This document shows positions 11,057 to 33,410 of a stretch of DNA of 64,000 bases, one piece after another (the first letter of the stretch is position 1; each line of letters starts with the position of its first letter). The stretch is from Gammaproteobacteria bacterium (GTDB lineage Bacteria > Pseudomonadota > Gammaproteobacteria > CAIRSR01). Below the pieces are notes generated by a model. The model was not told where the DNA came from, searched no databases, and worked only from the letters and a program-made list of their open reading frames with translations. Both the position numbers and the translations under genes were made by a program. Location: the NCBI GenBank assembly GCA_963575655.1, contig CAUYTY010000228.1:1-64000 (forward strand). Reading direction: 5' to 3'.

Positions 11057-12200
11057 CTAACCTGCGCGTTGGTTAGGGGACAAGCAAGTAAAAATAATCT
11101 ATTATTAGTCCAACCAAAAAATAAGACATGAAATTGCTAAAATTATGAAAAATTCTGATGGACGTTCTCTCGATCACTCTACCCTTGAGTATATAAGGCT
11201 TCAAGCAGTAAAAGCTGTACGTAAAGGAATGTCTCCTAGGGAGGTGGGCGAGATTTTCGGTATGCACCGATCGAAGGTGTACGAATGGGTGAAGAAGGCA
11301 AAAGAGATGGGTCTAGCTACGTTAAATGCGAAACCTGTCCCTGGAAGAAAATCCTTCATCAATGAACAGCAAGAAGGAATACTAGTATTCTGGCTGTGCG
11401 CATTTACCCCATTGGATTTTGAATTCTCGACAGTCTTATGGACAACTGAAATGATAAAGACATTAATAGAGAGGAAATTTTCTATTTACATGAGTCGTTC
11501 CGCGGTGGGCCGTTTTTTGCGCCGCATTAATTTAACTCCACAACGGCCAGTATATCGTGCGATAGAGAGGGACCAATTTTCAGTAGATAATTGGATTAAC
11601 AAAGAGTTTCCTAGAATCAAAGAGTTGGCAAGTAATGAGGGTGCTATAATCTATTTTCTTGATGAGGCTGGGGCGCGCACCGATTATCACGCGGGTACAA
11701 CTTGGGGGCTAGAAGGTTTAACTCCCATAATTCCCTCCACTGGTGGACGTTATCGCATAAATATGATCGCTGCGATAACTTCTGAAGGAAAGATGCATTT
11801 CCAAATAGGTCCCTCATCGCTCAATGGTGGTGCGTTTGTTGAATATCTAAAAATTTTGGCTCAAGAGAATTCATGCCCCATCTATATTGTAACAGACGGG
11901 TATTCTGCCCATCATGCAAAAGTAGTTAAGGAATATCTGGAGACGACAAATGGAAAGGTTAAAATATTCTTTCTTCCCACCTATTCTCCACACCTTAATC
12001 CTGTCGAGCTAGTATGGAGCAATATTAAGACACAAGGAATTGCGCGTCACCTTATTCGTAATGTGGAGGAGTTAAAAAATAAAGCTACTCAACTTTTAGA
12101 GGATTTAAAAAAATCGCCAGAGAAAGTCAGAGAACTTTTTAAAGAAGAATCCGTCCAATATGCTATTTAGCTGGAGTCCCCTAACCAACGCGCAGGTTAG
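11057..12200 (+). mobile_element. Intact IS630-family insertion sequence
   Basis: An element of 1144 bp bounded by perfect 24-bp terminal inverted repeats: the left reads CTAACCTGCGCG then TTGGTTAGGGGA from 11057, and the right is its exact complement at 12177-12200. It is flanked on both sides by TA (11055-11056 and 12201-12202), the target-site duplication of IS630. One complete transposase gene fills it. Perfect ends and an open frame mean recent arrival. The right flank is the first base pair of a family B repeat (12201-12284). Confidence 0.95.
11145..12170 (+). CDS. IS630-family DDE transposase
   Basis: A 341-residue transposase. The N-terminal helix-turn-helix (GMSPREVGEIFGMHRSKVYEW read in part as SPREVGEIFGMHRSKVYEW) is followed by a winged second HTH and the DDE domain: first Asp in FLDEAG, second Asp in IVTDGYSAHHAK, and Glu in SPHLNPVELVWSNIK. 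This matches the IS630/Tc1-mariner superfamily, which inserts at TA. An ATG upstream at 11128 closes at once, so 11145 is the start. The gene appears intact and could supply transposase in trans to TA-flanked short repeats in this genome, though their terminal repeats differ from those of this copy. Confidence 0.95.
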   Translation: MKNSDGRSLDHSTLEYIRLQAVKAVRKGMSPREVGEIFGMHRSKVYEWVKKAKEMGLATLNAKPVPGRKSFINEQQEGILVFWLCAFTPLDFEFSTVLWTTEMIKTLIERKFSIYMSRSAVGRFLRRINLTPQRPVYRAIERDQFSVDNWINKEFPRIKELASNEGAIIYFLDEAGARTDYHAGTTWGLEGLTPIIPSTGGRYRINMIAAITSEGKMHFQIGPSSLNGGAFVEYLKILAQENSCPIYIVTDGYSAHHAKVVKEYLETTNGKVKIFFLPTYSPHLNPVELVWSNIKTQGIARHLIRNVEELKNKATQLLEDLKKSPEKVRELFKEESVQYAI

Positions 12201-12284
12201 TAACCCAAGTTGCTACCTAGCAAACTGTTGGGCCGTCATTCCAGAGGGAATGTCGACACAGCGGATAGGTAACAGCTTGGGTTA
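12201..12284. repeat. Family B TA-bounded inverted-repeat element
   Basis: TAACCCAAGTTGCTACCTA at the left and TAGGTAACAGCTTGGGTTA at the right (12266-12284) bound 84 bp containing an inner hairpin (CATTCCAGAGGGAATG). The ends are the same as in copies at 37342, 41982, 51641 and 56611. The IS630 element inserted at its left TA, or the TA is shared. Confidence 0.75.
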
Positions 12285-12421
12285 ATGTGAGACGACAGAA
12301 TATGGACGTAAAACGTAAGACCCGATCTCGCCTCTCCGGTTTTGTTAAGTCGTTCGTGATTCGACCAGCCTACCAACCGAAGCTTAACTTAATGGCAGTG
12401 TATCCCGGTCTGGGGTGATTT

Positions 12422-12844
12422 CTAATACCGACGCCCACCACCGCCACCGCCAAAACCACCACCACCACCGCCGCCGCCGCCAAAGCCACCACCGCTGCCA
12501 CCACGACCGCCGCCACCGCCGCCACCGCCACTACCGCCACCGCGACCGCCACGACCGCCACGGCCACCGCCAAAACCTCCGCCACCGGATCTTTCTTCCT
12601 GTGGACGGGCCTCATTAACGGTCAGACTCCGCCCATCGACATCTTTACCATGTAAAGCGGAAATGGCGGCCTGGGCCTCTTTATCACTACCCATCTCGAC
12701 AAAACCAAAACCTTTGGATCGGCCTGTATCACGATCCATGATTACACTCGCAGACGTTACCATACCATGTGCGGCGAACATGGTTTCGAGATCACGATTG
12801 CTTACAGAATAACTTAGGTTACCAACGTACAATTTCTTACTCAT
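12422..12844 (-). CDS. RRM RNA-binding protein with glycine-rich tail
   Basis: A 140-residue protein. Residues 1-80 form one RNA recognition motif with RNP2 LYVGNLSY and RNP1 KGFGFVEM; the rest is a glycine-rich tail with RGG-like boxes (GGRGGRGGRGG). This is the architecture of cyanobacterial Rbp and plant glycine-rich cold-induced RNA-binding proteins, which chaperone RNA at low temperature. It is third in a minus-strand cluster after the RhlE helicase and a second RRM protein, so the set probably remodels structured RNA together. The glycine codons make a low-complexity tract; the His/Arg-rich reading frame opposite it is an artefact. Family is certain, the cold-response role inferred. Confidence 0.93.
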   Translation of the reverse strand: MSKKLYVGNLSYSVSNRDLETMFAAHGMVTSASVIMDRDTGRSKGFGFVEMGSDKEAQAAISALHGKDVDGRSLTVNEARPQEERSGGGGFGGGRGGRGGRGGGSGGGGGGGGRGGSGGGFGGGGGGGGGFGGGGGGRRY

Positions 12845-15064: not shown

Positions 15065-16915
15065 TTATTTCCTGATAGCGGCGCCAAGAATTTGTGCCGT
15101 TCGCGCAATGACCGCGAGGTCAAAGGGGCCACTCTTCGACAGGGGGAGTTCATGACCAGACCGGAACAGATGTACGCTTCCGGTTGGATCGTTGAGCGGC
15201 ATCAACGTCAGACGGCGACGGAGTTGGTCCCGCGCAACCAGATCTAGAAACTGGTTGCCATGTTTGTGCAGCAAGAGGGCCGTCAGTGTAATTATCCAGT
15301 CCTGTCTTAGTGTTTGCGCCGCACGAGCCCAATTGGGCAGCAACGCACGTATGATGCTGCGCCCAGTTTTGGGCGAAGGTGGCTGATGAGGTATACCGGG
15401 GTCGATCAACCCCACGAAACGTGGAGTTCGTCCCTGTCGCCGTAGTGCATCAGCCAGCGCCAAAATTGCGCCACAGGCGCGTCCCACCCCCAGAAGCAGT
15501 ACTTCCCGCTCGATTTCGTCGCCCTCCACCTGCTGCTTCAGTCCATCAATGAACCGGTGCAACCCCTGTTCGTTGGGGAGTAACCAGGCGCGATGGTCGT
15601 ATTCCAGCAGCCGACAGTCTGCTACTCCGGCCAGGCTTCGCACCAACGCCATAGTGACACGTTGCGGATGTTCAATATCGACCGCCAGGTGTATCAGCGG
15701 TAGTCGAGGGGCGGGCTGCGGAGATTCGAGCGCCGCAATCGACGTTGTCAGTCGGTCCGCGTCGGTCATTTGTTCGAGCAGAGCCAACGGTAGCCGTCGT
15801 CCCAACTCGAATTCCAGACGCAACAGCATGATCAACGCATCGCTACCTCGATTCAGAATGGTCTCCTGGGCACGTCGGATGATCGTACCAAGGTCATCCT
15901 GCGGCGGTGACGGATTCGGCATGGCTAGTGTTTTTGGGGAGCGTGAAGGAAGGTGAAATGAGGTGCGCTGCTCGCGTCGCACGGCCGCAACCCATTGGTC
16001 CACCACTTTGAAGGAAAAATCCATCGGTAAACGGCACCCCGGCGTAATCATGGCTGGACACCCGTTCAGTTGTTGAGTCAGGTTGTCCAGATAGGATTCG
16101 ATATCGCCAACAGCGGCCCGACCAAGCAACATTGTCGTTGTCAGTCCCAGGGCCAGGGGACCGGGGAACAACTCCAATACTTGGGGCAAGGAGGGATTGG
16201 ATGGACAAAGTTCCCAATGTAGCCAGAAACCATGTGGTAGTGGCGTATTCGGTAGGTGTACATGTGTCCCATGCAAATGCAGCAAATTCACCCGCATGGA
16301 CACCATCCGATTGATGCAGGGCAGATCGTAGGCCTGCCACAGCGGTGCATAGCGAGTGGCCGAAAAGAAGGGGGCACGCATGTGCTGTACCGCGAAAAAA
16401 ACGCCATCGGCACCGGCTGCCTCACAACGCTGTATGGTTTCGATGGTGCAGAGGGTCAAACGCTCTAAAACACGCGCCATCAGGGTGGGGCGCCTTGCCA
16501 GTAGGCGAGATCCCTCGTCTCGGGTCAGTTGCAGAAACTGTGAGACGGGACTGAATACAGTCTGAAGCACTGGAATATGAGGTGGGAGGCGGGTGCGAAT
16601 GCGGACAACCGCCTCCATAGCGCGGGTCACCGCAGGGCCGGGAACTGCCTCCTCGGCGAGGCGTTCCCAATCCCAGAGGTGCTGCATGGGTGAATGGACG
16701 ATATCTGCGTAGCCATACCGCCGTCCACACCAGGCATCGACTACCCCGTAGTCCGCGACCTGGTAGGTACCAGGCGGCGATACCTTAACCAGGTCGAAGT
16801 TGAATCGCTGTTGGACATCAACGACGGCATCGGCCAATCCACAGGCGCTACGATCGCTATGAGGATGGTGCCACCAAAACGCCAGCGGAAACGAAGACAA
16901 CGGCGACAACGGCAT
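15065..16915 (-). CDS. URO-D-like protein fused to carrier-like and thioesterase-like domains
   Basis: A 616-residue three-part protein. Residues 1 to about 320 resemble the uroporphyrinogen decarboxylase/methyltransferase barrel (FWWHHPHSD, FDLVKVSPPGTY, ADGVFFAVQHM, ITPGCRLPMD). About 340-400 resembles an acyl/peptidyl carrier domain: helix spacing and FELGRRLPLALLEQMTDADRL match, but the phosphopantetheine serine position reads GSDAL instead of GxDSL. About 410-600 resembles a type I thioesterase, but the nucleophile elbow reads GRACG where GxSxG is expected. Both active serines are thus replaced by alanine. It is last in the operon and overlaps the radical SAM gene by one base. A binding or scaffold role for the C-terminal half is inferred. 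The URO-D call is fairly firm; the other two rest on pattern only. Confidence 0.65.
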   Translation of the reverse strand: MPLSPLSSFPLAFWWHHPHSDRSACGLADAVVDVQQRFNFDLVKVSPPGTYQVADYGVVDAWCGRRYGYADIVHSPMQHLWDWERLAEEAVPGPAVTRAMEAVVRIRTRLPPHIPVLQTVFSPVSQFLQLTRDEGSRLLARRPTLMARVLERLTLCTIETIQRCEAAGADGVFFAVQHMRAPFFSATRYAPLWQAYDLPCINRMVSMRVNLLHLHGTHVHLPNTPLPHGFWLHWELCPSNPSLPQVLELFPGPLALGLTTTMLLGRAAVGDIESYLDNLTQQLNGCPAMITPGCRLPMDFSFKVVDQWVAAVRREQRTSFHLPSRSPKTLAMPNPSPPQDDLGTIIRRAQETILNRGSDALIMLLRLEFELGRRLPLALLEQMTDADRLTTSIAALESPQPAPRLPLIHLAVDIEHPQRVTMALVRSLAGVADCRLLEYDHRAWLLPNEQGLHRFIDGLKQQVEGDEIEREVLLLGVGRACGAILALADALRRQGRTPRFVGLIDPGIPHQPPSPKTGRSIIRALLPNWARAAQTLRQDWIITLTALLLHKHGNQFLDLVARDQLRRRLTLMPLNDPTGSVHLFRSGHELPLSKSGPFDLAVIARTAQILGAAIRK

Positions 16916-18234
16916 TACAAATTACTCCGCTGTTCGCTTGTTTGGATGGATATATTTTTCGGTTCATCGATAGGGATAGTTGGATGCCGAAAAGACCAGA
17001 GAACCATAAGGAGAATTTCCGGGATTGCCTTTATAAGGCGGGATCTCGAACGTAGCACCATAAGAAATCGGCGAGATAGCGACCAGCCGGGAATCTGATT
17101 GCCAAGTAGGTCTTGCGGTGTCACATAGTCCATGGTTCCCATCCGACCGAGTCCAAACCACAGGATCCGTCGCGGCAGGCTGGGTCGTGATGGGCGATGA
17201 CGGGACGATTCCGACTTCGACATCTGTTTTGCGGGTGGTTCGATCTCTTCCCTTCGGATCCAGTGTCCTGACATAACTCGTTCCAAATAGTGGTGACAAT
17301 GTGAGCACGGGATGTCTTCCCTGGGGGGAACGTCTCCCATCAGCATTGCCCGTGCGTAGCGAATTGCCTTACCGTTGATAGCGGCATCCAGATCTTCGAA
17401 CGCATTTCCGCCCAGTATGCGGCGGTAATTGGCGCGACAACCCAAAACCTGACCATCGAAATTGATCTGTGGACGGGTCCAAAGCTCGTGGCATAACTCA
17501 CCCGCATAGGATGTGCGGGTAAGGCGTTGAAACTCCTTGATGGTTGTGGCCGGTAGCCCGCTTTCCCGCAAGATCGTACGGCGATCACGAATGGGCGAGA
17601 ATCGCATATCCCAGGAGAGTTTGGGGCGAAACTTCATGCCTAACTCATCGGCCATGCGTTTGGCAGTGAAGATTTCCCGTTCGTTGTGACCGAAGATCAC
17701 GAATTGCCACGTTAAGTGTGGATAGGCGGTACCGTACCGGGCCTTGTATGCGTTGATGGTGCGAATATTTTCGATTACCTGCTCGAATTGGCCTCGCCGG
17801 CGATAGATGGCATAGGTAGCAGCGCTGGCCCCGTCGAGTGCACAGGTGATGCTGCGCATCCCATACCTGACCAACCCTTCCAGCACTTCTTCACGCACGG
17901 TGTTCAGGTTTGCACCATTGTCACAGGTCAATGCCACGCCGTGTTTGGCTGCGATTCGCAACAAGTCCAGCATCTGAGGATTGAGAAACGGCTCGCCGTA
18001 GTTTGACAGCTCTACGCTATGTAGACCTGGATTACGCTCGATCAGAGAGAGGAAGTCGTTGGCCCGTAGAAATCCCTTGCCGAGGACGCGATGCACTTGG
18101 CCCGCAGCGGTGGGGCAGGAGGGGCATTGCAGTTGGCAAGCTAACGATGCCTCTAGTCGAATGGCGCCGATGCCCACTCGATAGTCGTTAGGTCCGAAGG
18201 GCACGAACCTATCATGTAACCAGTTGATTCTCAA
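16915..18234 (-). CDS. Radical SAM/SPASM-type enzyme
   Basis: A 439-residue radical SAM enzyme. The cluster motif CQLQCPSC (Cys33, Cys37, Cys40; CX3CX2C) binds the 4Fe-4S cluster that cleaves SAM. ELSNYGEPFLN is the GGE-like SAM-binding strand. A C-terminal SPASM-like region follows (CHELW, GQVLGCRANYR, CSHCHHY), expected to hold auxiliary clusters as in enzymes that modify peptides. An extra basic tail of about 110 residues ends the protein. The start overlaps the end of the ABC transporter gene (ATGA-type coupling) and its end overlaps the URO-D-like gene, so the three are made together. The substrate is unknown; the operon suggests a peptide or protein tail (see PqqD-like gene). Confidence 0.85.
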   Translation of the reverse strand: MRINWLHDRFVPFGPNDYRVGIGAIRLEASLACQLQCPSCPTAAGQVHRVLGKGFLRANDFLSLIERNPGLHSVELSNYGEPFLNPQMLDLLRIAAKHGVALTCDNGANLNTVREEVLEGLVRYGMRSITCALDGASAATYAIYRRRGQFEQVIENIRTINAYKARYGTAYPHLTWQFVIFGHNEREIFTAKRMADELGMKFRPKLSWDMRFSPIRDRRTILRESGLPATTIKEFQRLTRTSYAGELCHELWTRPQINFDGQVLGCRANYRRILGGNAFEDLDAAINGKAIRYARAMLMGDVPPREDIPCSHCHHYLERVMSGHWIRREEIEPPAKQMSKSESSRHRPSRPSLPRRILWFGLGRMGTMDYVTPQDLLGNQIPGWSLSRRFLMVLRSRSRLIKAIPEILLMVLWSFRHPTIPIDEPKNISIQTSEQRSNL

Positions 18235-19997
18235 ATTAAGTTACCACGCAAGCCAGGATGGTTGCTGGATACGTTTACCGGCAGATAAGCGCAAAGGTCG
18301 ATGACTGCGTCGCACTTGGCCAACGTCTCGAGCCGGTGGGCCACCAAGATCAGGGTCAGGTCCGGCGACAATGTCCGTATGGCCTTCAGTAGGGTTGATT
18401 CTGCCGCTAGGTCCAACTGAGAGGTAGCCTCGTCCAGTACCAGGACCTGCGGATTGGCCAGGAGAGCCCGCGCGATACAGAGACGTTGCCGTTGCCCGCC
18501 AGACAGGCGCATGCCCCGTTCTCCCAATCGAGTATCCAGGCCAAGGGGCAGGTGATGGACGAATTCGGTCATGCCGGTCAGGGCCAGTACTTCGTTGATA
18601 CGCTCGTCAGATACCTGGCTGTTGGGTAGGCCCCAAGCCACGTTGTTGCGTAGGGTTTCGTTGGCTACGTAGGGATCCTGTGGCACGTAACCGATCAGAC
18701 GCTGCCAATGGAGGCGTATATCCGCAAGTGGATGACCGTCGATCTCGATACGGCCGCCCAGCGGATCGAGCAGGCCCAGTAGGGTGTCGATGAGCGTGGT
18801 CTTACCGCTCCCCGACGGCCCAGCGATGGCCACGGTATCACCGCGCCTGATCTCGGCGTTAAGGTGGATGACCGCAGGAGAACCGGTCCGGTAGCCACAA
18901 TCCAGCGCTTGCAGACGGATGGATTCGGTAAAGACTGCACGCCTGCTCGCCAGTGCGTCAGGAGCGGGTGGTTTGATGTGCGCGGCCTCTGCATTCCACC
19001 GGGAAACCAGGTCACGGGCACTTGGCAGATGGGGACGCATCTGTGAGACGGCATGGAGTATACGGCTGGATAGGGGTAGCAGGCGCCAACCCGCAGCACA
19101 GAATAGGGCTAGAGAAGGAACGATATCCTGTTCTTGTCGTTCGATCAGCACCACCACCACCGCAAACATGAACAGACATAGGAACAGAAAGTTTTCGGTC
19201 CATAGTCGCGGTATGGCTCTGGCAATACCCTCTCGGCCTATGGCCTGGGCATATTTACGGGCGACGTGGCGCATACGTTGCCGAAAGCCCAACTCGCGAT
19301 GCATCACCTTGACTTCCCTGACCGAGGATAGGGCTTGATTAGTTACGCTCAGGATGCCGGGTACGATCTCACGAGCTGCGTGGCGCATCCTCCGCTGGAG
19401 TTTGCGCGTACTCAGCACCTGCGTACCGGCACTAACGGCGAAGGTCAGCCCTAGGGCCACGCTTATGGCCGGATCCATCCACAGTAGGAGGCCCAGTAGG
19501 GAAACGACCACAAATGCGTCTGGTACCAAATCCAGGCAGGGGATTAGGACGTTCTGGATCGATTGACGGAGGTCTTCTATCAGCAGCGCGGTGACCTCAC
19601 CAAGGTTGCGCTCGGATAGTGATTGGAAGGGAGTGGCGAGTTGTTGAATGAAAAGGTTACGTACCGCCCCCTGGATCAGGGGCACCAGGATCTTATTTCG
19701 TAGGAAGACCATGTATCCCTGCATCAGGGTCTTGAGCAGGGAGATCCCCAGCAGGCCCGCAGTGGCTACAACGATCCGCCATTGCGAACGCAGCCATGGT
19801 CCGATCCAGGCGACAAACCAGTCTGACCCGTGCTCCAACAGAGCCACCCGCATCAACAACCGAGCAAACCCTAAAACCCCGAGCATCAACAAAAGGTCCA
19901 AGACCATGACCACCAACGCCAAGGCTACATAGCCACCTATGTGGCGGCGGGGTCCGGGGCCGAGATGGTTCAACAGGGAGACGGCGACGCGGATCAT
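18231..19997 (-). CDS. ABC exporter, fused membrane and ATPase domains
   Basis: A 588-residue half transporter. The N-terminal part (about 1-320) has the six-helix exporter fold, beginning LGPGPRRHIGGYVALALVVMVL. The ATPase domain has Walker A GPSGSGKTTL, Q-loop YVPQDP, signature LSGGQRQRLCIARAL, Walker B VLVLDEATSQ and H-loop VAHRLET. It lacks a peptidase C39 domain, so it is not a leader-cleaving bacteriocin exporter. It works as a homodimer in the inner membrane. Overlap with hprK-like (19994-19997) and radical SAM (18231-18234) genes ties it to the biosynthetic operon, where it probably exports or flips the product. Confidence 0.92.
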   Translation of the reverse strand: MIRVAVSLLNHLGPGPRRHIGGYVALALVVMVLDLLLMLGVLGFARLLMRVALLEHGSDWFVAWIGPWLRSQWRIVVATAGLLGISLLKTLMQGYMVFLRNKILVPLIQGAVRNLFIQQLATPFQSLSERNLGEVTALLIEDLRQSIQNVLIPCLDLVPDAFVVVSLLGLLLWMDPAISVALGLTFAVSAGTQVLSTRKLQRRMRHAAREIVPGILSVTNQALSSVREVKVMHRELGFRQRMRHVARKYAQAIGREGIARAIPRLWTENFLFLCLFMFAVVVVLIERQEQDIVPSLALFCAAGWRLLPLSSRILHAVSQMRPHLPSARDLVSRWNAEAAHIKPPAPDALASRRAVFTESIRLQALDCGYRTGSPAVIHLNAEIRRGDTVAIAGPSGSGKTTLIDTLLGLLDPLGGRIEIDGHPLADIRLHWQRLIGYVPQDPYVANETLRNNVAWGLPNSQVSDERINEVLALTGMTEFVHHLPLGLDTRLGERGMRLSGGQRQRLCIARALLANPQVLVLDEATSQLDLAAESTLLKAIRTLSPDLTLILVAHRLETLAKCDAVIDLCAYLPVNVSSNHPGLRGNLI

Positions 19998-21085
19998 GGA
20001 TCAGCGCCGTTTCGGCCACGAGTTCCGATGAAGTCTCTCACCCTAGCGACCACTTCGGCAGGGTCGCTGGCAAGAGTCAGCCGCCACACCGGCAAGCGTT
20101 TGGCCATCTCGGCCATAACCTCCATGGCTTGGTACCGGTTTTGGATGTTGACGAAGGTGGAGTGGGCTGCCGCTGCGCGCAAAAAGTCACCACTGCGTGC
20201 TGGTTCGATCACGGTTCGCCCCGTACCGCCGATGCACGGTAGCAGGATGGCGCGGATACGGTTCCACGGTGGGGCAGGGGGCAGGCGCCAAAGCGGTTTG
20301 TCCTCGTTGGCGAGAGTCTGGGGTGCGAACCGTTCACAGTCGAATCCGTGCTGCCCCAGATAGAAGGGGTTGGCTAGGGCGGTGGCGTAGAGGCTGTAGC
20401 CGATGACTTCTTGGTCGTGGATTGCTACCGCGATCGTGTCGTCGCCGAGGAGGTCGAGCCCCGCAAATAGGCAGGCTAGGGCGGTGGTGGATTTACCAGA
20501 ACCACCGGCCCCGGCTAGAAGCACGGCATCGCCGCCGCTGCCCACCAAGGCGGCATGTAGCATCACTATGCCCGCATGAGAAAGTACGCCTGCCATCAGG
20601 CGGTGGAGTGGTCGTGCCCACTGGTCGGGCTGCCAGCGAGAAGGTGCTTCCATGCGTCCGACGATACGACCCGCCCGGACATCCAGCACCATGTCCGACT
20701 CGGGGCGCCAGTCGTGAAATAGGCGATGTTCGGGGTCATCCACTACCAAGCCCCAGGGATGGGGGGCGGTCGGCACATCATCGGAAAGCGCCGGAGAGGC
20801 CCACACCTCCACGGTCAACGCCGGCGTCTGGTCTCTCGCATCGTCGAGTCGCAGGTGCGCAAATGGTGCCCATAGCGCCTCGGCCAGTGTGGAACCGACG
20901 ATGGAAAATCGCGTATGCAGGGTGCCTATTCGGGCATTGAAGAGTTGTGGCACTCCGGCTTGTTCGAAGCCCTCGACCAGCCGATGGAAGACCTGGGAGG
21001 GGGTGACGTTGTAGCCGTGGCGAGCCAATAGCGCACGGCGTCTTTCCTCGGCGGACAGTGATGGACAAGGTGAGGAAAAAGTCAC
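19994..21085 (-). CDS. HprK-like serine kinase-related protein
   Basis: A 363-residue protein whose C-terminal half resembles the HPr kinase/phosphorylase fold: HAALVGSGGDAVLLAGAGGS, where GAGGSGKST is the P-loop, followed by LLGDDTIAV. True HprK works on HPr Ser46; proteins of this shorter HprK-related class sit in peptide-modifying clusters with PqqD-like and NTP_transf_5 proteins, and their targets are mostly unknown. The start is a GTG (21085) lying only six bases past the tnpB stop, so the IS607 insertion may have replaced the native start and upstream coupling. Ends in a four-base overlap with the ABC gene. Confidence 0.75.
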   Translation of the reverse strand: MTFSSPCPSLSAEERRRALLARHGYNVTPSQVFHRLVEGFEQAGVPQLFNARIGTLHTRFSIVGSTLAEALWAPFAHLRLDDARDQTPALTVEVWASPALSDDVPTAPHPWGLVVDDPEHRLFHDWRPESDMVLDVRAGRIVGRMEAPSRWQPDQWARPLHRLMAGVLSHAGIVMLHAALVGSGGDAVLLAGAGGSGKSTTALACLFAGLDLLGDDTIAVAIHDQEVIGYSLYATALANPFYLGQHGFDCERFAPQTLANEDKPLWRLPPAPPWNRIRAILLPCIGGTGRTVIEPARSGDFLRAAAAHSTFVNIQNRYQAMEVMAEMAKRLPVWRLTLASDPAEVVARVRDFIGTRGRNGADP

Positions 21086-21091
21086 CTGCTT

Positions 21092-22507
21092 CTAAAAACC
21101 CGGACAAATTTGGCGATTCAGATTTTTAGATATTTCGCACTCCGTTGATAGGTTTGTCGGCCCGCAACTGGAGTCCTGGTTGGACAGTCTCAACCGGAGG
21201 CGCTCGGTCCGTTCTAGCAATATAGATTTCACCTTCTTGAAAGGCGTCCATCGATCTATCCCCGGATCGTGAAGTCTTGCTAAAACGTTTCGCGCAGCGT
21301 TCTCATCCGCCTGCAAAACCACCCCGTCGAAACAGTGAAATTGATCCCCTTTGCGGCTACCTAGTAAACAGCCGCTCCGAGAATCCATTTGTGAGGTATA
21401 AGCAGGATTAACGAGAACCAACGTAGAACCTCTACGCTGGGATACATTCTCAATCGCCTCGGCGATGATGCCTTTGGTCCAATTCGCCAAACGACGATTC
21501 ACATTTCTACCAAAATTCTTGCCACTCATTTGAGCGGTCAAATCTTCCGCTACTATCACACTAGCTTTATCAACAACGGCATGAACCGCCTGGTAAACTT
21601 TATCACGAATCTGAGCCTTTATTATTCTTGCATGACGCTGTTTTTTCTTGCGGCCAAGATTGTGTTTGAGTATGTGTTGACGCTTACGGTTATTACGAGT
21701 GTTCTCGGCGATAGCTCGAAGTTTTGCTCGGCGCTGATTTTTGCTTTTGAGTGCGTCGGATTCAGTGGATAGCAATTCACCAAGACCTTTTCCGTGATGT
21801 TCACCATCGGAATCAACTAATACTTCCGTGTATCCTTTGTCCACACCAATTATTTGTACGCCACAGTCGTTTGTTTGGGTAACTTCGACTGCGTAATGCA
21901 CTTCCACTTTCGCTTCGCGTAAAATTAATCGTAAGGTGCCAGTTGGTTCCACGATGGTATTCAAAGGGATCGCTATGCGTTGCCCGCGTTCTAGTCCTGG
22001 GATTTTTATCCAGGCATGTCCACCCAATTGAAAGGATGTGTAACTATCTGAACGAACAATGATTTGATTGTGCGTATGATTATGGCCCCGATTCCAATAC
22101 TTGCGCATCACGCGCGCCAGATAACGATCCTCAACGAATTGATTTGTTTTTAACCTTGCGTAAAGACTCTTACGTTCTTGAACATCAGGGCTGTGATTAC
22201 GAATCGCTTGTCTAGCCTTTACCTTAGCCGCTTCGACCGTCATAACGATGTTGGTTTCCGCATCACGCAAGGTTTCCTTCCAAGCATTCGCCAAAACCGG
22301 AAAGGTACGTTTTTCATTTATCCAGGTATCACGAATCTGACGATCCGTCAGTCTAAGAGCTTGAATCGAACCATAGCGCTGCCAGACTTCTGAACGGATA
22401 GCGCCAAGCCTTTGCGCTTGTTCTTCTAGCGCTGATAGCTTTCCTGGATTAAGTTGTTTGCTCAACGCTATCCGAGTCGTTTTCATGGTGTTCTTCTTGG
22501 GTTTCAA
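21092..22507 (-). CDS. tnpB: TnpB-family RNA-guided nuclease-like protein of IS607 element
   Basis: A 471-residue TnpB (OrfB/IS891-IS1341 type); start is TTG 22507 or ATG 22486. The three RuvC residues are present: Asp in IIGVDKGYTE, Glu in VIVAEDLT, Asp in LQADENAARN. The zinc-ribbon between the second and third motifs is degenerate: PAYTSQMDSRSGCLLGSRKG and QFHCFDG hold only two separated cysteines instead of two CxxC pairs. TnpB proteins cut DNA with a guide RNA transcribed from the gene's 3' end and right flank; here that flank is the hprK-like coding start. The 5' end overlaps the tnpA remnant in another frame, as in IS607. Confidence 0.88.
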   Translation of the reverse strand: MKPKKNTMKTTRIALSKQLNPGKLSALEEQAQRLGAIRSEVWQRYGSIQALRLTDRQIRDTWINEKRTFPVLANAWKETLRDAETNIVMTVEAAKVKARQAIRNHSPDVQERKSLYARLKTNQFVEDRYLARVMRKYWNRGHNHTHNQIIVRSDSYTSFQLGGHAWIKIPGLERGQRIAIPLNTIVEPTGTLRLILREAKVEVHYAVEVTQTNDCGVQIIGVDKGYTEVLVDSDGEHHGKGLGELLSTESDALKSKNQRRAKLRAIAENTRNNRKRQHILKHNLGRKKKQRHARIIKAQIRDKVYQAVHAVVDKASVIVAEDLTAQMSGKNFGRNVNRRLANWTKGIIAEAIENVSQRRGSTLVLVNPAYTSQMDSRSGCLLGSRKGDQFHCFDGVVLQADENAARNVLARLHDPGIDRWTPFKKVKSILLERTERLRLRLSNQDSSCGPTNLSTECEISKNLNRQICPGF

Positions 22508-22689: not shown

Positions 22690-23688
22690 TCAAGATGCAG
22701 TTTTTGGCTCCCCTTGCCGGTGGGTGGCTAACGCCCACCAAGCGAGGTATGCACGCAGCAGCAGAGGTTGTCTGGCCGCCAGGAAACGCCGTCGCCCTAC
22801 AATAGAAAAAACCGTCTGGTAACGTTGGCGAAGGGAAATCGGTAAGGCAGGCAGGACACGACGTAACGTGACAGCATTGGGTAGGGCGAAGGTGTGGTCC
22901 AGGTAGCCGAGTACGCCGTCCACGGCGCAGGCAATCACCGGCTCGCGTTTGGCCAGGTTTTCCAGTCGATTCGGCGTGACGCCTTCCATGCCCACCAGTA
23001 CGGCTGCGTCTATTAGCCAGCGTGGCTGACTGGTACCGCAGTAGGCCAGACAGGCAAGCGCCAGTTCGTCGATGTGGGCGAGGTAGCGAAAGACCAGACC
23101 ATCCACCGTCCCCTCCTGCGCGGCGGCGGTTAGTTGCTCGTGGTCCAGCTCGGAGAGCCCTGGTGGCGTTGATGCGTACAGATGGACCGGTAGCCCGGAA
23201 GGATGCTGGTACTTGAAGACACCTCCCCGTATTGCTACTTCCTCTAAGCCCAACACATTGGTAGCGGCCTGCAATGTTCTATTGTCGGGGAAGAGGAGGT
23301 CGATGCTGGCGGTATGACGAAGTCTTCGGCCGGGGCGAACATGGCCATCGAGTACCAGGGGTGATAGCCCCCGTTGCTCCATTTTCGTCAACAGATCTCC
23401 GAGGATGGTTTGCAGCGCGGTGCCACGCCGCTCCTCTAGGAGGGCTGCTACCGTGAGCCTTCGTGCTACCTCACGGGGGGCGGTCGATGTAAGGCTATGG
23501 CTACGTTCGTGTAACAGTGGTAGTAGATCCTCTCCGCCATGTGGTAACTTGGGTGTATTTAGCCACTGTTGCCAGCATACCTCTGCTTCGTCCAAAGGCA
23601 GGATCATGGTCCCGAGGAACGCATGTTCGGCAGGGGACAAAGCCTGGGAGCAGATCCACCTGAACAACGGAGAGGTAGTGGTGTTCAC
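22690..23688 (-). CDS. Nucleotidyltransferase-like protein (NTP_transf_5 type)
   Basis: A 332-residue protein resembling the NTP_transf_5 family (PF14907) that accompanies PqqD-like and HprK-like proteins. It shows the family layout: LVLDGHVRPGRRLRHTASID, where R..ASIDLLF stands for the usual R..GDIDLLV metal-binding strand, then VHLYAS (for the family's hDlH) and a helical C-terminus with DELALACLAYCGTSQPRWLID, matching the LLH....H.W....WL.D pattern in part. The second Asp of the catalytic DxD is absent (SID), so nucleotidyl transfer is uncertain. It overlaps the upstream glycosyltransferase gene by four bases. Confidence 0.7.
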   Translation of the reverse strand: MNTTTSPLFRWICSQALSPAEHAFLGTMILPLDEAEVCWQQWLNTPKLPHGGEDLLPLLHERSHSLTSTAPREVARRLTVAALLEERRGTALQTILGDLLTKMEQRGLSPLVLDGHVRPGRRLRHTASIDLLFPDNRTLQAATNVLGLEEVAIRGGVFKYQHPSGLPVHLYASTPPGLSELDHEQLTAAAQEGTVDGLVFRYLAHIDELALACLAYCGTSQPRWLIDAAVLVGMEGVTPNRLENLAKREPVIACAVDGVLGYLDHTFALPNAVTLRRVLPALPISLRQRYQTVFSIVGRRRFLAARQPLLLRAYLAWWALATHRQGEPKTAS

Positions 23689-24365
23689 AGAGGCGCTACC
23701 TTGCGGCCGCGATGACGGGCGATGGTGACGAAGGCCGCATCAATGGAGGCTTGGGTAAATCGTCGGCTGGTGTTGTCGCGATGCAGGCGACGCCGTGCTA
23801 GTACCTCTGCTATCTCGACCACCTCGATGGCAGTTCGCTTGAGTCGGGCGAACCATTCGAATTCGGCACGGATGGGCATGGTTTCATCCATGGGGCCGAT
23901 CCGCTCCCAGAGCTGTCGCCGAACCATTAAAGTGCTAGCGATGTAACCTGGCCTCGGCCTCTCAAGATTGGTAGGGATAGTACCTTCACCTAGGTTGGTA
24001 TCCGTAAAGGTATCGATGAGAGTTACACAGCCGCCCGCAGTCGCTGCTATCGCCAAGGCACCAAGCTGACGTTCGAGTTTGGTGGGTAGCCACAGGTCAT
24101 CGGCATCCAGAAATGCCAGCATGTCACCGTTGGCCGCTTGAACACCGGCATTACGGGCCGAGGCGACCCCTCCATTCACCTGCTGGATCAGCCGGACACG
24201 CCCCCTGCCTCGGGCAGTGGCCGCCGATCCATCGGTCGAACCATCGTCCACCACGATTATCTCGTCCGGTGGCCGAGTTTGAGCAAATACGCTGTCGAGG
24301 GCTTGATCGAGGAAACGCTCACCGTTCCATACCGGGATGATGCAGCTCACCACCATGCTGCTCAT
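23685..24365 (-). CDS. Family 2 glycosyltransferase
   Basis: A 226-residue GT-A fold glycosyltransferase of family 2: SCIIPVWNGERFLDQALDSV, IIVVDDGSTDGS (nucleotide-binding Asp), VASARNAGVQAANGDMLAFL and the metal-binding DADDLW. The C-terminal helix region is short, with no membrane segment. It overlaps both neighbours by four bases (PqqD-like upstream, nucleotidyltransferase-like downstream), so it is translationally coupled. It is a paralogue of the gene at 24820-25509. It presumably adds a sugar to the product of this operon; donor and acceptor cannot be told from sequence. Confidence 0.9.
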   Translation of the reverse strand: MSSMVVSCIIPVWNGERFLDQALDSVFAQTRPPDEIIVVDDGSTDGSAATARGRGRVRLIQQVNGGVASARNAGVQAANGDMLAFLDADDLWLPTKLERQLGALAIAATAGGCVTLIDTFTDTNLGEGTIPTNLERPRPGYIASTLMVRRQLWERIGPMDETMPIRAEFEWFARLKRTAIEVVEIAEVLARRRLHRDNTSRRFTQASIDAAFVTIARHRGRKVAPL

Positions 24366-24802
24366 TTGTGTTTTCCGACACTCACCATCGGCAGCGGTGG
24401 ATCGATCGCGAAAGAGTCAGCGAGATCGTCGAATTTTTCAAAGCGTGGAGTGACGTATATCCCCGAACTCGGAATCCGTTGCAGAACCGGGATCGGGGCG
24501 TCGCTGTTTACCGCAACGATCAATCCTGCGGTGTATAGGTTGTGGCTGAAGGCTTCAACGTCTGCGGCGAGGGATGATGATGCTACGTCCCAGTGAGCCA
24601 TGCCCCACTCGGTCATCGCCACGATGGTGGTACCCCGCTCCAGCAATGACCAGAAATCGACGCCGCTACCGCCCAGGGCGAAATAGACTCCCGTATTGAA
24701 ATTAATGATGACGACCTCGTCGTCGGCCATCTGGCTTACGACCTGTTCGTCGTCGGGTACGCGTAAGACAGTTTCGCGTAGCAAGATTGCATCTTCTTTC
24801 AT
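24362..24802 (-). CDS. PqqD-like protein with conserved-looking C-terminal tail
   Basis: A 146-residue protein. Residues 1-95 match PqqD-type peptide chaperones (ADDEVVIINFNTGVYFALGG, then FWSLLERG, where PqqD has ..G....LN..A..IW.L..G), which present peptides to radical SAM enzymes. The last 40 residues form an extra tail containing YVTPRFEKFDDLADSFAIDP followed by PLP. To my knowledge tails of the form P.LEKY.DM.DLL.LDP occur on PqqD-like proteins of such clusters; the resemblance is from memory. With no separate precursor gene visible, the tail may itself be the modified segment or a docking site. It overlaps the next gene by four bases. Confidence 0.75.
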   Translation of the reverse strand: MKEDAILLRETVLRVPDDEQVVSQMADDEVVIINFNTGVYFALGGSGVDFWSLLERGTTIVAMTEWGMAHWDVASSSLAADVEAFSHNLYTAGLIVAVNSDAPIPVLQRIPSSGIYVTPRFEKFDDLADSFAIDPPLPMVSVGKHK

Positions 24803-24819
24803 GGTGATATAAATGGTAT

Positions 24820-25509
24820 TTATTTCGAGGCGGATCGTCGGCGGGCGAGGTCGCGGGCCACGAGCGTAAACGCAGTGTTAATCCGCTGAGAGTTGGCGAA
24901 ATCGCGGATGAGGTTACGTGTATGCAAACGGCGATTTACGAATACCTCATCTAGGTGCCTGAAGCAAGCTCGCGCCGTGACTACCCGGAGGAACCAGTCG
25001 GTATCTTCGCCCCACGGAAACAGGGTCTCGTCGAACAGACCGACCCGATCGAATAGAGAGCTGCGGGCCATGGCAGTTGAGAGCAGGAATTCGCCGCTGT
25101 GACGACCTAGTAGGGGCAGCCGCCAATCGCCGGGGATGGTGCAGGGCGGGTCGGCGAAGTTTTCAGCGGCGACCAGGCACAGATCCAGATCCGGCCAGCG
25201 CACGAATGCCTCCACCTGTCGCTCAAGTTTGTGTGGTCGCCAGATATCGTCGGCATCGAGAAAAGTGATCAGGTCCCCCCTCACTACACCCAGTGCCGTA
25301 TTGCGTGCGCCTGCAGGTCCCCGCCCTTGGGTGGGCAGAACCGTGGGGCATAGAGCATGACCTCGCGCACACTCGACCGAGGCGTCGGTCGAACCATCAT
25401 CAATCACCAATACCTCAAACGGACAAATACTTTGCGTCGCGATGCTGTCCAAAGCCTTTGTCAGAAAGGGCATTCCGTCACGAACCGCGATGATGCAGGA
25501 GATCTTCAT
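24820..25509 (-). CDS. Family 2 glycosyltransferase, first gene of the operon
   Basis: A 229-residue GT-A glycosyltransferase: SCIIAVRDGMPFLTKALDSI, VLVIDDGSTDAS, GPAGARNTALGVVRGDLITF, DADDIWRPHKLERQ, and a conserved FPWGEDTDWFLRV near the C-terminus that carries the ED catalytic region. Similar in length and order of motifs to the second glycosyltransferase of the cluster, so the two arose by duplication but have diverged. It is the first gene of the minus-strand biosynthetic operon; the 335 bases upstream should hold the operon promoter. Cytoplasmic, no membrane helix. Confidence 0.9.
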   Translation of the reverse strand: MKISCIIAVRDGMPFLTKALDSIATQSICPFEVLVIDDGSTDASVECARGHALCPTVLPTQGRGPAGARNTALGVVRGDLITFLDADDIWRPHKLERQVEAFVRWPDLDLCLVAAENFADPPCTIPGDWRLPLLGRHSGEFLLSTAMARSSLFDRVGLFDETLFPWGEDTDWFLRVVTARACFRHLDEVFVNRRLHTRNLIRDFANSQRINTAFTLVARDLARRRSASK

Positions 25510-31244: not shown

Positions 31245-31541
31245 TTATAGTCCTTTTGGAACAGGTGGATAAGCGAGGTTTGGTTCAAACAGGCTACTAG
31301 ATCGTTTTGTAAAATCTCCGATTAGGCGACGCATTGGTCGTGGCAACTCACGGATCAGGGTAGGAATGGCAAGAATCTTGCCTTCTCGTGCCCGATCGGG
31401 GTGTTCGAGAATATCGACGATCTCCAAGGTGTAGTCTCCATTAGTCTCTGTTTCACAGAGATGCCGCAAATTTACAATCGCTTGTTCTGTATAAGGTGTA
31501 TGACCGGCAATATAAAGCGTAAAACAATGGTGAATGATCAT
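31245..31541 (-). CDS. kaiB: KaiB, canonical type
   Basis: A 98-residue thioredoxin-like KaiB. FTLYIAGHTPYTEQAIVNL aligns with the cyanobacterial LYVAGNTPNSVRAL start, EIVDILEHPDRAREGKILAI with [20 protein letters not shown], and PTLIRELPRPMRRLIGDF with PTLAKVLPPPVRKIIGDL. KaiB is a fold-switching protein that binds the CI ring of phosphorylated KaiC and captures KaiA. It lies between kaiC and the histidine kinase gene, with gaps of 44 and 42 bases on the same strand. It has a C-terminal proline-rich extension (NLAYPPVPKG) beyond the usual end. Confidence 0.93.
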   Translation of the reverse strand: MIIHHCFTLYIAGHTPYTEQAIVNLRHLCETETNGDYTLEIVDILEHPDRAREGKILAIPTLIRELPRPMRRLIGDFTKRSSSLFEPNLAYPPVPKGL

Positions 31542-31585
31542 GGATGTTTTCTCGCCAGGAAAACTTTGTGGTACTGTCCGTCGAA

Positions 31586-33100
31586 CTATTCAAACATCTT
31601 ATCAAAACGATCAGAATCCCTTATCGGTGTGACTGAAGCAACGCCAAGCATGATGTTCTGAACGTTTTGGAACGGTTCTCCAACATGCATACCGTCACCG
31701 TCGATGGTAAATTCGCGAATGCGCTTATCATGTTGCGAACCGCGCATCTTAATGACCGCAATTCCTCGACGTAGGATACCGTTGATCTCCACATAGCGTA
31801 ATAAAGCAATAACATCGGTAATGGTTGATATGTGGGTCTCAGTGACCGACTCACCACCGGAGAGTTGTGGGGTGGTGCTGGTGAATAGACTACACACCCG
31901 CTCCTGTTTCATAAAAGAGGTCAAACCAATCACGAACTCTCGGAAATTGCGGACACTAGCTACCCGTTCCATAGCAGAGATACTGTCCATAATTAGACGT
32001 CGCGGCTTGAAGCCAAGAATTTCACGGCGGATCACCAACAGGTGATCCTCAAGTCCCATTGCTTCTGGATATTGGCAGACGATGCGGAGTAGTCCTTCCT
32101 GTTCCCACTTGAAAAAATTAATACCCCAAGAGGAGGCATTGCGTAGTAATTGCTCACGGGATTCCTCGTAAGCCAGTAGCAACACTTTCTCGCCGCTACG
32201 ACAGCCCTCGGCAGCAAACATGGCGGACATTAGAGTCTTGCCACCACCGGTTGGTCCACTGACCAAGAAAATTGAATCCCGGAAGATGCCGCCATTGGTC
32301 ATGAGATCCAGGTCGGAATTCCCGGTACCAGTGCGATCATTGGAGGATTCTTGGGTAAGTTCCATCGCTGACAATGCCAAAATTGTGATGCCGGTATTGG
32401 TAATTGTGAAGGGATATTCACCCTTGCAATGTACGTCACCTCGCATCTTCAATACTTGGATGGTGCGGCGGCATTTTTCTTCGAGGAGGACATTGCGTAC
32501 GACGATAACGTTGTCGGAGATGAACTCTTCGACGCCGTGGCGTGAAATATGGCCATACTCGTCGAGACGTTCGGCGGTCATCAGGGTAGTTACACCGAGT
32601 TCCCGCATCACTTCGGTGATACGGAAAATTTCCAGTCGCACTTTGGAGGTATCGGAAAACTGGTGAAACAGTGATCCAATCGAATCGATTACCACAAAAT
32701 CGGCATTAATTTGTGTTATCGCTTGACGAATTTGAAAGATTAATCCTTCGAGGTTGTAATGACCTACTTCTTCGGCAGGAATTGGATCTGGGGAGCCATC
32801 AACGAAGGCTAGTTTGTTTCGCTTTATGAGTTCCATCAAATCCCAGCCGACACGCTTGACATTGCGCATAATTTCGATCGGCTTTTCCTCCAGGGTAACA
32901 AAAATCCCAGCGTGACCGTGCTGCGTAATGCCCCGATAGAGAAATTCGACGCCGAAAATGGTCTTACCTGACCCAGAGGTACCCACCAGGAGGGTGGTAC
33001 GGCCCTGTGGCAACCCGCCCATCGACAGATGCTCAAATCCCTCGATACCTGTGGGTATTTTGGTTGGTGCACGAATATCCAATGTTTCTAGATTTTTCAT
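31586..33100 (-). CDS. kaiC: KaiC circadian clock ATPase/autokinase
   Basis: A 504-residue double RecA-like ATPase. CI carries Walker A GTSGSGKT, catalytic glutamates in VTLEEKP and Walker B VVIDSIGSLF. CII carries GPTGGGKT, LAYEESREQL and LIMDSISAME. The phosphorylation segment reads VTETHISTITDVIALLRYVE and keeps the adjacent Ser-Thr pair (S431/T432 of Synechococcus KaiC) and a Thr at the T426 position; the A-loop-like tail is shorter than in cyanobacteria. KaiC forms hexamers and slowly autophosphorylates and hydrolyses ATP. ATG 33100 has GGAG ten bases upstream. It is flanked by two kaiB genes in one operon. Confidence 0.96.
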   Translation of the reverse strand: MKNLETLDIRAPTKIPTGIEGFEHLSMGGLPQGRTTLLVGTSGSGKTIFGVEFLYRGITQHGHAGIFVTLEEKPIEIMRNVKRVGWDLMELIKRNKLAFVDGSPDPIPAEEVGHYNLEGLIFQIRQAITQINADFVVIDSIGSLFHQFSDTSKVRLEIFRITEVMRELGVTTLMTAERLDEYGHISRHGVEEFISDNVIVVRNVLLEEKCRRTIQVLKMRGDVHCKGEYPFTITNTGITILALSAMELTQESSNDRTGTGNSDLDLMTNGGIFRDSIFLVSGPTGGGKTLMSAMFAAEGCRSGEKVLLLAYEESREQLLRNASSWGINFFKWEQEGLLRIVCQYPEAMGLEDHLLVIRREILGFKPRRLIMDSISAMERVASVRNFREFVIGLTSFMKQERVCSLFTSTTPQLSGGESVTETHISTITDVIALLRYVEINGILRRGIAVIKMRGSQHDKRIREFTIDGDGMHVGEPFQNVQNIMLGVASVTPIRDSDRFDKMFE

Positions 33101-33125
33101 TTATTTATGTCTCCACGTATTTAAC

Positions 33126-33410
33126 TCAATCTATCGTATCAACATCAAGGCCGATAGTTCGAGTTACTCTTTCCGAGTCTGTTAAATGCCCAATAAATCT
33201 GCGAATCGGCAACGGTTTTGTACGAATTAGCAATGGTGTGGCCAATACACGGTATTTTACAACAGCCTCCGGTTGAACCGAGAGGTCGATCATCTCCAAT
33301 TCGCAAGTTTTTCCCGCGCGCTCGACTAGTCGCATCAGCGACTTTTTCAATTCGCCAGCGGAAGTATTTTCTCCAAAAAATAACAATGTAAATTTGAAAT
33401 TCACTGCCAT
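33126..33410 (-). CDS. Divergent KaiB-like protein
   Basis: A 94-residue KaiB-family protein, more divergent than the one at 31245-31541. FKFTLLFFGENTSAGELKKS replaces the usual LYVAGNT start; VLATPLLIRTKPLPIRRFIG matches the ILATPTL.K.LP.P.R..IG core, and it keeps the IGLD ending seen in cyanobacterial KaiB. The start ATG overlaps the stop of the KaiA-like gene by one base (TAATG), indicating coupled translation. Two KaiB forms in one operon suggest different partners, for example KaiC and the KaiA-like protein or kinase. The thioredoxin-like fold is also used by SasA-type sensors, but here it is a free-standing protein. Confidence 0.85.
   Translation of the reverse strand: MAVNFKFTLLFFGENTSAGELKKSLMRLVERAGKTCELEMIDLSVQPEAVVKYRVLATPLLIRTKPLPIRRFIGHLTDSERVTRTIGLDVDTID

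Follow-up and report, generated by a model that had tools for sequence, protein, structure and literature searches.

The C-terminal tail of a PqqD-like protein encoded in the window (the whole 64,000-nucleotide stretch of DNA that was analysed) belongs to a family of tails held by at least about 18 phyla, counted from the 18 named phylum-level groups in the record titles, and sequence comparison supports the reading of this tail as a deeply conserved leader-like element fused to an RRE. The window copy is a poor representative of the family, because the near-invariant H..GWP end has been lost.

The 146-residue ORF is real and consists of a PqqD/RRE domain plus a C-terminal extension. Pfam PqqD (PF05402) covers residues 29-95 with an E-value of 3.4e-10 and 40.5 bits against a cut-off of 23.4, and the protein has the wHTH RRE fold by Foldseek (E 8.8e-6 and TM 0.87, by target length, to 5v1v), the top matches and nearest solved structures in this structural search being the TbiB1-leader complexes 5v1v and 5v1u. 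The original prediction had given the extension 40 residues and an end at DPPLP; an extension is present, with a length of about 51 residues (96-146) in which a variable linker precedes the conserved tail (116-146, YVTPRFEKFDDLADSFAIDPPLPMVSVGKHK), and MVSVGKHK comes after DPPLP. The sequence YVTPRFEKFDDLADSFAIDPPLP sits inside this extension. The protein divides as follows:

24362..24802, minus strand: PqqD-like RRE protein with C-terminal tail, 146 aa (ORF; Pfam PqqD; Foldseek)
24518..24742, minus strand: RRE domain, residues 21-95 (alignments, covariation)
24560-24562, minus strand: D81, equivalent of LppB D70 (alignment, covariation; crystal contacts PMC13381572)
In the RRE domain: F85, equivalent of LppB F74 (alignment; crystal contacts PMC13381572)
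24458..24517, minus strand: variable linker, residues 96-115 (mean pairwise identity among homologues 11%)
24404..24457, minus strand: leader-like half, residues 116-133 (YVTPRFEKFDDLADSFAI), with a YxxPx[LF] motif (tail-profile match, AlphaFold)
24365..24403, minus strand: core-equivalent end, residues 134-146 (DPPLPMVSVGKHK), without the H[DE]V..GWP of most homologues

Conservation of the tail

A DNA pattern for DP[IV..]H[DE]xxxxGWP was run against bacterial and archaeal genomes, one for each species; at least 116 stretches matched, and at least 80 loci were built from them. Among the matches listed, the pattern is C-terminal in PqqD-domain proteins at 80 of 80 loci and lies 3-15 residues from the stop, the exception being L054, where it runs into a second unit. 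In that locus a single ORF (7088-7999) holds tandem PqqD-like units, with an RRE, the tail motif and a second RRE-like stretch. The tail consensus among homologues is [FYW]xxPxLxx[YF]xDMxxLLLLDP[IV]H[DE]Vxx(x)GWP. Residues within the search pattern are conserved by construction and the upstream positions are free of this selection; at the loci among the matches listed, these outside positions hold [FYW] at -18 (74/80), Pro at -15 (72/80), Tyr or Phe at -10 (75/80), Asp at -8 (75/80) and Met or Leu at -7 (78/80). Mean pairwise identity in the family is highest in the leader half (44.7%), lower in the RRE (29.4%) and lowest in the linker (11.1%). Relatives recovered by protein search end in LTLNKYTDLEALLLLDPVHDVSSEGWP plus a few residues (L002, same genome) and in PPVREKFEDMSELLMLDPIHDVDEMGWP plus a few residues (L006, another genus).

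For a selection independent of the motif, a profile built from the HprK-like kinase of the neighbourhood was used to search genomes. Ten of the 12 loci selected in this way that have a PqqD-like neighbour carry DPxH...GWP, the two exceptions being L134, which is truncated, and the window. Poor conservation among homologues had been named in the original prediction as an outcome that would speak against the tail being the modified peptide; the tail is conserved, and it is the window copy that diverges. Even so, the likeness of the window tail to the family exceeds chance: against a profile of homologous tails it scores 14.8 bits (best of 1000 same-residue shuffles, 9.1), aligning through Asp-Pro and diverging after. 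Within Acidobacteriota, Planctomycetota and Bacteroidota, high-scoring members have the tail or a variant of it, and low-scoring discrete RREs are without it. A tail-only profile gave no match to PDB chains. Against one lasso precursor (L008) the tail profile scored a non-significant 2.0 bits; it is the motif, and not the profile, that ties the tail to lasso leaders. At that locus (G035:C221, another genus), ORFs resembling lasso precursors (KKPYHTPKLNELGNVKELTL...) occur in two copies close to a discrete PqqD.

Evidence for docking of the leader half

The first half of the family tail is the [Y/W]xxPxL motif by which lasso and LPP leaders bind RREs, the recognition motif of lasso-type RREs being [Y/W]xxPx[L/V/I/F/A] (PMC12710340; PMC13381572). 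In the LppB-LppA crystal, Asp70 hydrogen-bonds the leader Tyr, Phe74 packs against the Pro, and the sheet gains a strand from the residues that follow the leader motif (PMC13381572). AlphaFold predicts a strand where the crystallised leaders have one: in the window protein, residues 111-120 have a mean pLDDT of 93 and a strand lies at 120-124, at odds with the earlier view of an extension separate from the PqqD fold, and in an intact member the strand (113-115) comes right after the aromatic-xxP segment. In both models, pLDDT is about 85-93 over the leader half and about 57-66 from DP to the end (61-64 at the window end).

The tail aromatic covaries with RRE position 81, the column that comes out on top when all RRE columns are scanned: Asp is found with Tyr in 13 of 24 cases and with Phe in 2 of 48 (p 2.5e-6), the held-out set containing only 2 Tyr tails. 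For independent contrasts, the tree left out both the tail and the position 81 column. With all branches, about 8 of 18 contrasts on the best tree run as expected and about 0 run opposite (median p 0.008, maximum 0.07), and well-supported branches hold only 3 contrasts, too few for a test of their own. Together, motif, predicted packing and covariation give indirect support to a tail that occupies the leader pocket of an RRE, its beta/alpha3 cleft, either within one chain or across protomers. Neither the covariation nor the identity of the motif separates these two arrangements, and in a trans arrangement the leader half of one protomer could fill the RRE of the next, with a domain-swapped dimer or oligomer as the result; we consider this unlikely, since the linker of about 20 residues permits cis docking and the single-chain model orders the leader segment with high confidence.

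A recurrent gene set

The genes around the window copy, all on the minus strand, include:

18231..19997, minus strand: MsbA/PglK-like ABC transporter (profile match; 17/80 loci have one, among the matches listed)
19994..21085, minus strand: HprK-like kinase that retains the His, Walker A Lys and Asp-Asp (alignment)
22690..23688, minus strand: NTP_transf_5 nucleotidyltransferase-like protein (6.7e-7, just under the Pfam cut-off)
23685..24365, minus strand: GT2 glycosyltransferase, its start overlapping the stop of the PqqD-like gene (ATGA)
24820..25509, minus strand: second GT2 glycosyltransferase, upstream (Pfam)

The kinase matches NCBIfam HprK_rel_A at 4.5e-8, under the cut-off (32.5 of 200 bits), and its family profile matches the solved HprK 1jb1 at 8.8e-8. 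In lasso kinases, residues of the same types as this His, Walker-A Lys and Asp-Asp are reported to be catalytic (PMC9266682).

Neighbours were counted by a six-frame profile search of the 80 loci listed (at most 8 kb each), because greedy-length ORF calling under-counted genes in GC-rich loci. An HprK-like kinase is present at 63 of these loci, GT2 at 65, NTP_transf_5 at 40, GT4 at 21 and an ABC transporter at 17; where at least 3 kb lie downstream (n=42 among the matches listed), HprK is found at 38 and GT2 at 39. The larger regions show a compact PqqD-HprK-GT2-NTP_transf_5 operon, and in one case the glycosyltransferases are accompanied by sulfotransferase and epimerase genes. At another locus (L135; G191:C11:6657-7676) an HprK-like gene with an internal TGA, a possible pseudogene, lies next to a tailed PqqD gene that is itself intact.

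Asn synthase, B2 peptidase and radical SAM enzymes are not among the Pfam families that recur in the neighbourhoods, and no Asn synthase or B2 peptidase recurs among the long unassigned neighbours. A radical SAM domain occurs in 2 of 82 unassigned neighbours, and the radical SAM protein of the window clusters with only one other locus. We therefore reject the radical SAM enzyme, which is not conserved in the gene set, as the tail modifier that the original prediction had envisaged; the conserved set is the HprK-like kinase, GT2 and NTP_transf_5. The expectation that these clusters have no separate precursor gene, on the other hand, is borne out: no small ORF family recurs near the PqqD-like gene at the family loci, and the two small ORFs nearby that match a YxxP-type pattern are isolated and unrelated.

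Several further features of the window were recorded. An IS200/IS605-type TnpB (21092-22507, minus strand; NF040570 above cut-off), with no evident TnpA partner, lies between the NTP_transf_5 and HprK-like genes. The radical SAM protein, whose nearest model is a tungsten cofactor maturase (far under cut-off), precedes a 616-aa protein that weakly matches URO-D/methyltransferase; this pair (15065-18234, minus strand) is outside the conserved cassette. Elsewhere, a KaiC-like double ATPase ORF (31245-33410, minus strand) lies, by eye, between two small KaiB-like ORFs and adjoins a large multi-PAS hybrid histidine kinase.

Relation to known systems

The closest described system is that of the linear polyphosphorylated peptides (LPP), with LppA, the RRE LppB, the HprK LppK, the NTP transferase LppN, the peptidase LppS and the MsbA-like transporter LppD (PMC13381572, 2026). 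Shared are a same-fold RRE, an HprK-like kinase, an NTP transferase, a YxxPx[V/L] leader motif, an MsbA-like transporter at some loci, the absence of a macrolactam cyclase and glycosyltransferases that are often near; in the window, kinase, NTP transferase and transporter are all present beside the RRE. However, the LPP precursor LppA, which supplies the Ser acceptor, is a protein of its own, whereas the RRE here carries the leader-like segment on the same chain and no distinct LppA-type ORF with YxxPxVLxHQxIxFETxxS was found near the gene. No peptidase of any kind, and hence no counterpart of the SpI-type LppS of LPP, was seen in the window cluster or among the recurrent neighbour families. 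GT2 is standard here. Finally, LPP is described as Bacillota-restricted (PMC13381572), unlike the tailed family with its at least about 18 phyla.

The lasso peptides paeninodin and pseudomycoidin have a PqqD-like B1, an HprK-like kinase with His-Lys-Asp-Asp, the nucleotidyltransferase-like PsmN and a Y/WxxP leader motif in common with the family (PMC9266682), but here the precursor-like part is fused and no C-terminal Ser acceptor is conserved. The Asn-synthase-like cyclase C and the B2 leader peptidase are absent from the window cluster and the recurrent neighbour families, and on the lasso B1 model NF033536 the window protein scores 41.6 of 80 bits, under the cut-off. Judged by its genes, the module would work like an LPP or paeninodin tailoring module, yet it belongs to neither class because a separate precursor, SpI, B2 and a cyclase are all missing.

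Other comparisons are more distant. The TbiB1, TfuB1/FusB1 and PqqD RREs (5v1u, 5v1v, 6jx3, 5sxy) share the fold and the leader pocket but are discrete, have no fused tail and bind a peptide from another gene. In borosins the precursor is fused to its modifying methyltransferase; the idea of a fused substrate is alike, but the partner there is a methyltransferase and not an RRE, and the proteins are unrelated. The HPr-rel-A system of NCBIfam (TIGR04352/TIGR04353) likewise combines an HprK-related kinase with a PqqD-like protein, but the window kinase, at 32.5 of 200 bits, falls far short of the model cut-off there, and TIGR04353 does not match the window PqqD and matches only 9 of 57 PqqD members (best 2.1e-5). 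The best NCBIfam matches are the lasso PqqD and HprK_rel_A models, with window scores far under their cut-offs, and the tested members approach the cut-off of no NCBIfam model. A literature search confined largely to open-access papers returned no description of the tail motif, of an RRE-precursor fusion or of a fused leader.

What the tail may do

Leader motif, covariation, conserved gene set and the lack of a separate precursor make a fused leader-like substrate plausible, and we put the chances at even that the protein is, as its most likely function, a self-presenting fused RiPP-like substrate in which an RRE carries its own leader-like segment and a short core whose end is modified. The RRE, a peptide-binding wHTH, would be joined by a flexible linker to this leader-like segment and short C-terminal core. 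The [FYW]xxPxL segment would dock in the leader pocket of its own RRE and extend the sheet by a strand, so that the terminal DP...GWP (DPPLP... in the window) stays exposed for the HprK-like kinase, the GT2 enzyme or enzymes and the NTP_transf_5 protein, and the C-terminal end could then receive phosphate, nucleotide or sugar. The window copy would have kept the docking half, with an end of the divergent DPP.P subtype. More tentatively, and with the balance of our judgement somewhat against it, the family could represent an undescribed, widespread class of ribosomal peptides whose precursor and RRE form a single chain, with the leader held in cis and the DPxH...GWP end presented to the HprK-like kinase, GT2 and NTP_transf_5 protein, giving a tail that bears phosphate, nucleotide or sugar, possibly at His or Asp and not at Ser.

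The nature of the acceptor bears directly on this proposal. PsmK phosphorylates Ser. Ser is likewise phosphorylated by LppK and PadeK, and PsmN adds hexose to that phosphate (PMC13381572; PMC9266682). In the tail end Ser, Thr and Tyr are not conserved, and 18 of the 79 tails listed lack all three between DP and the C-terminus, with HprK near 14 of those 18; the known HprK chemistry is therefore not general there, and an acceptor in the end, if any, would be another residue such as His or Asp. The fused peptide tail of the original prediction survives as a conserved leader-like element fused to the RRE, without the conserved Ser, Thr or Tyr that known HprK chemistry would use.

These observations also suit a different role, in which the tail is a docking or scaffolding arm and not a substrate: the leader half would lock on the RRE, and the GWP end would recruit the kinase and glycosyltransferase to act on another acceptor, such as a glycan, a lipid-linked sugar or a protein. 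Besides the missing hydroxyl acceptor, the tail end is near-invariant across phyla, as is typical of a binding motif and unlike most RiPP cores (some cofactor-type RiPP cores are also fixed), the partners are glycosyltransferases, once together with the sulfotransferase and epimerase genes, and no leader peptidase or other protease is conserved in the cassette. We nevertheless think this role possible rather than probable, because RREs bind their substrates through the very motif found in the leader half, lasso peptides that are phosphorylated and hexosylated are tailored by the pair of kinase and NTP_transf_5 (PMC9266682), and no other conserved acceptor gene was seen in the family neighbourhoods. 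A functionless acidic extension, for which the divergence of the window copy and nothing beyond it would speak, is extremely improbable for a tail that is more conserved than its RRE across at least about 18 phyla.

The window copy and its paralogue

Whether the substrate or the docking role applies to the family, the window copy could be decaying or already non-functional, with an intact paralogue doing the work. Such a paralogue (L177, contig C2) is present in the same genome with HprK, GT4, GT2 and NTP_transf_5, and a tail-profile search of this genome found only the window copy and the contig C2 paralogue. The short contig of the paralogue also encodes a second, distant HprK-like protein without a Pfam match (11756-12724, minus strand). 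The invariant end is lost from the window tail, with DPPLP where homologues have DPIH...GWP, and the TnpB element lies between the NTP_transf_5 and HprK genes.

Other evidence makes us doubt such decay, which we rate as a minority possibility. The window ORFs and HprK catalytic motifs are intact, gene overlaps are retained, and D81 is kept together with Tyr116. A frameshift as the cause of the lost GWP end was rejected, there being no clear remnant in other frames; one alternative frame of the window tail reads SIHRCRW, probably by chance. Furthermore, two Acidobacteriota tails (L193, ADLLALDPPHPGL, and L195, ADLLALDPPIPGL) are near the ADSFAIDPPLPMV of the window, and the cluster of the latter (L238) has HprK, GT2 and NTP_transf_5. 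At L238 (1969-2868) and L237 (4468-5229), DPPIPGL and DPPHPGL replace DPIH..GWP, a window-like second tail subtype. DPP.P may thus be a real tail subtype, the three sequences being few. Searching genome contigs with a nucleotide pattern drawn from the window protein alone yielded no relatives because this copy is divergent; the conserved GWP pattern succeeded.

Implications

If the tail is only a docking arm, the family would still present an RRE whose pocket is filled by its own chain. If it is a fused substrate, a family in at least about 18 phyla, without an NCBIfam model, would join recognition domain and substrate in one chain, so that study of the substrate would need no guess at a precursor gene. 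It would also offer a defined tail with which to probe the HprK-like kinases, NTP_transf_5 proteins and GT2 enzymes of lasso- and LPP-like clusters.
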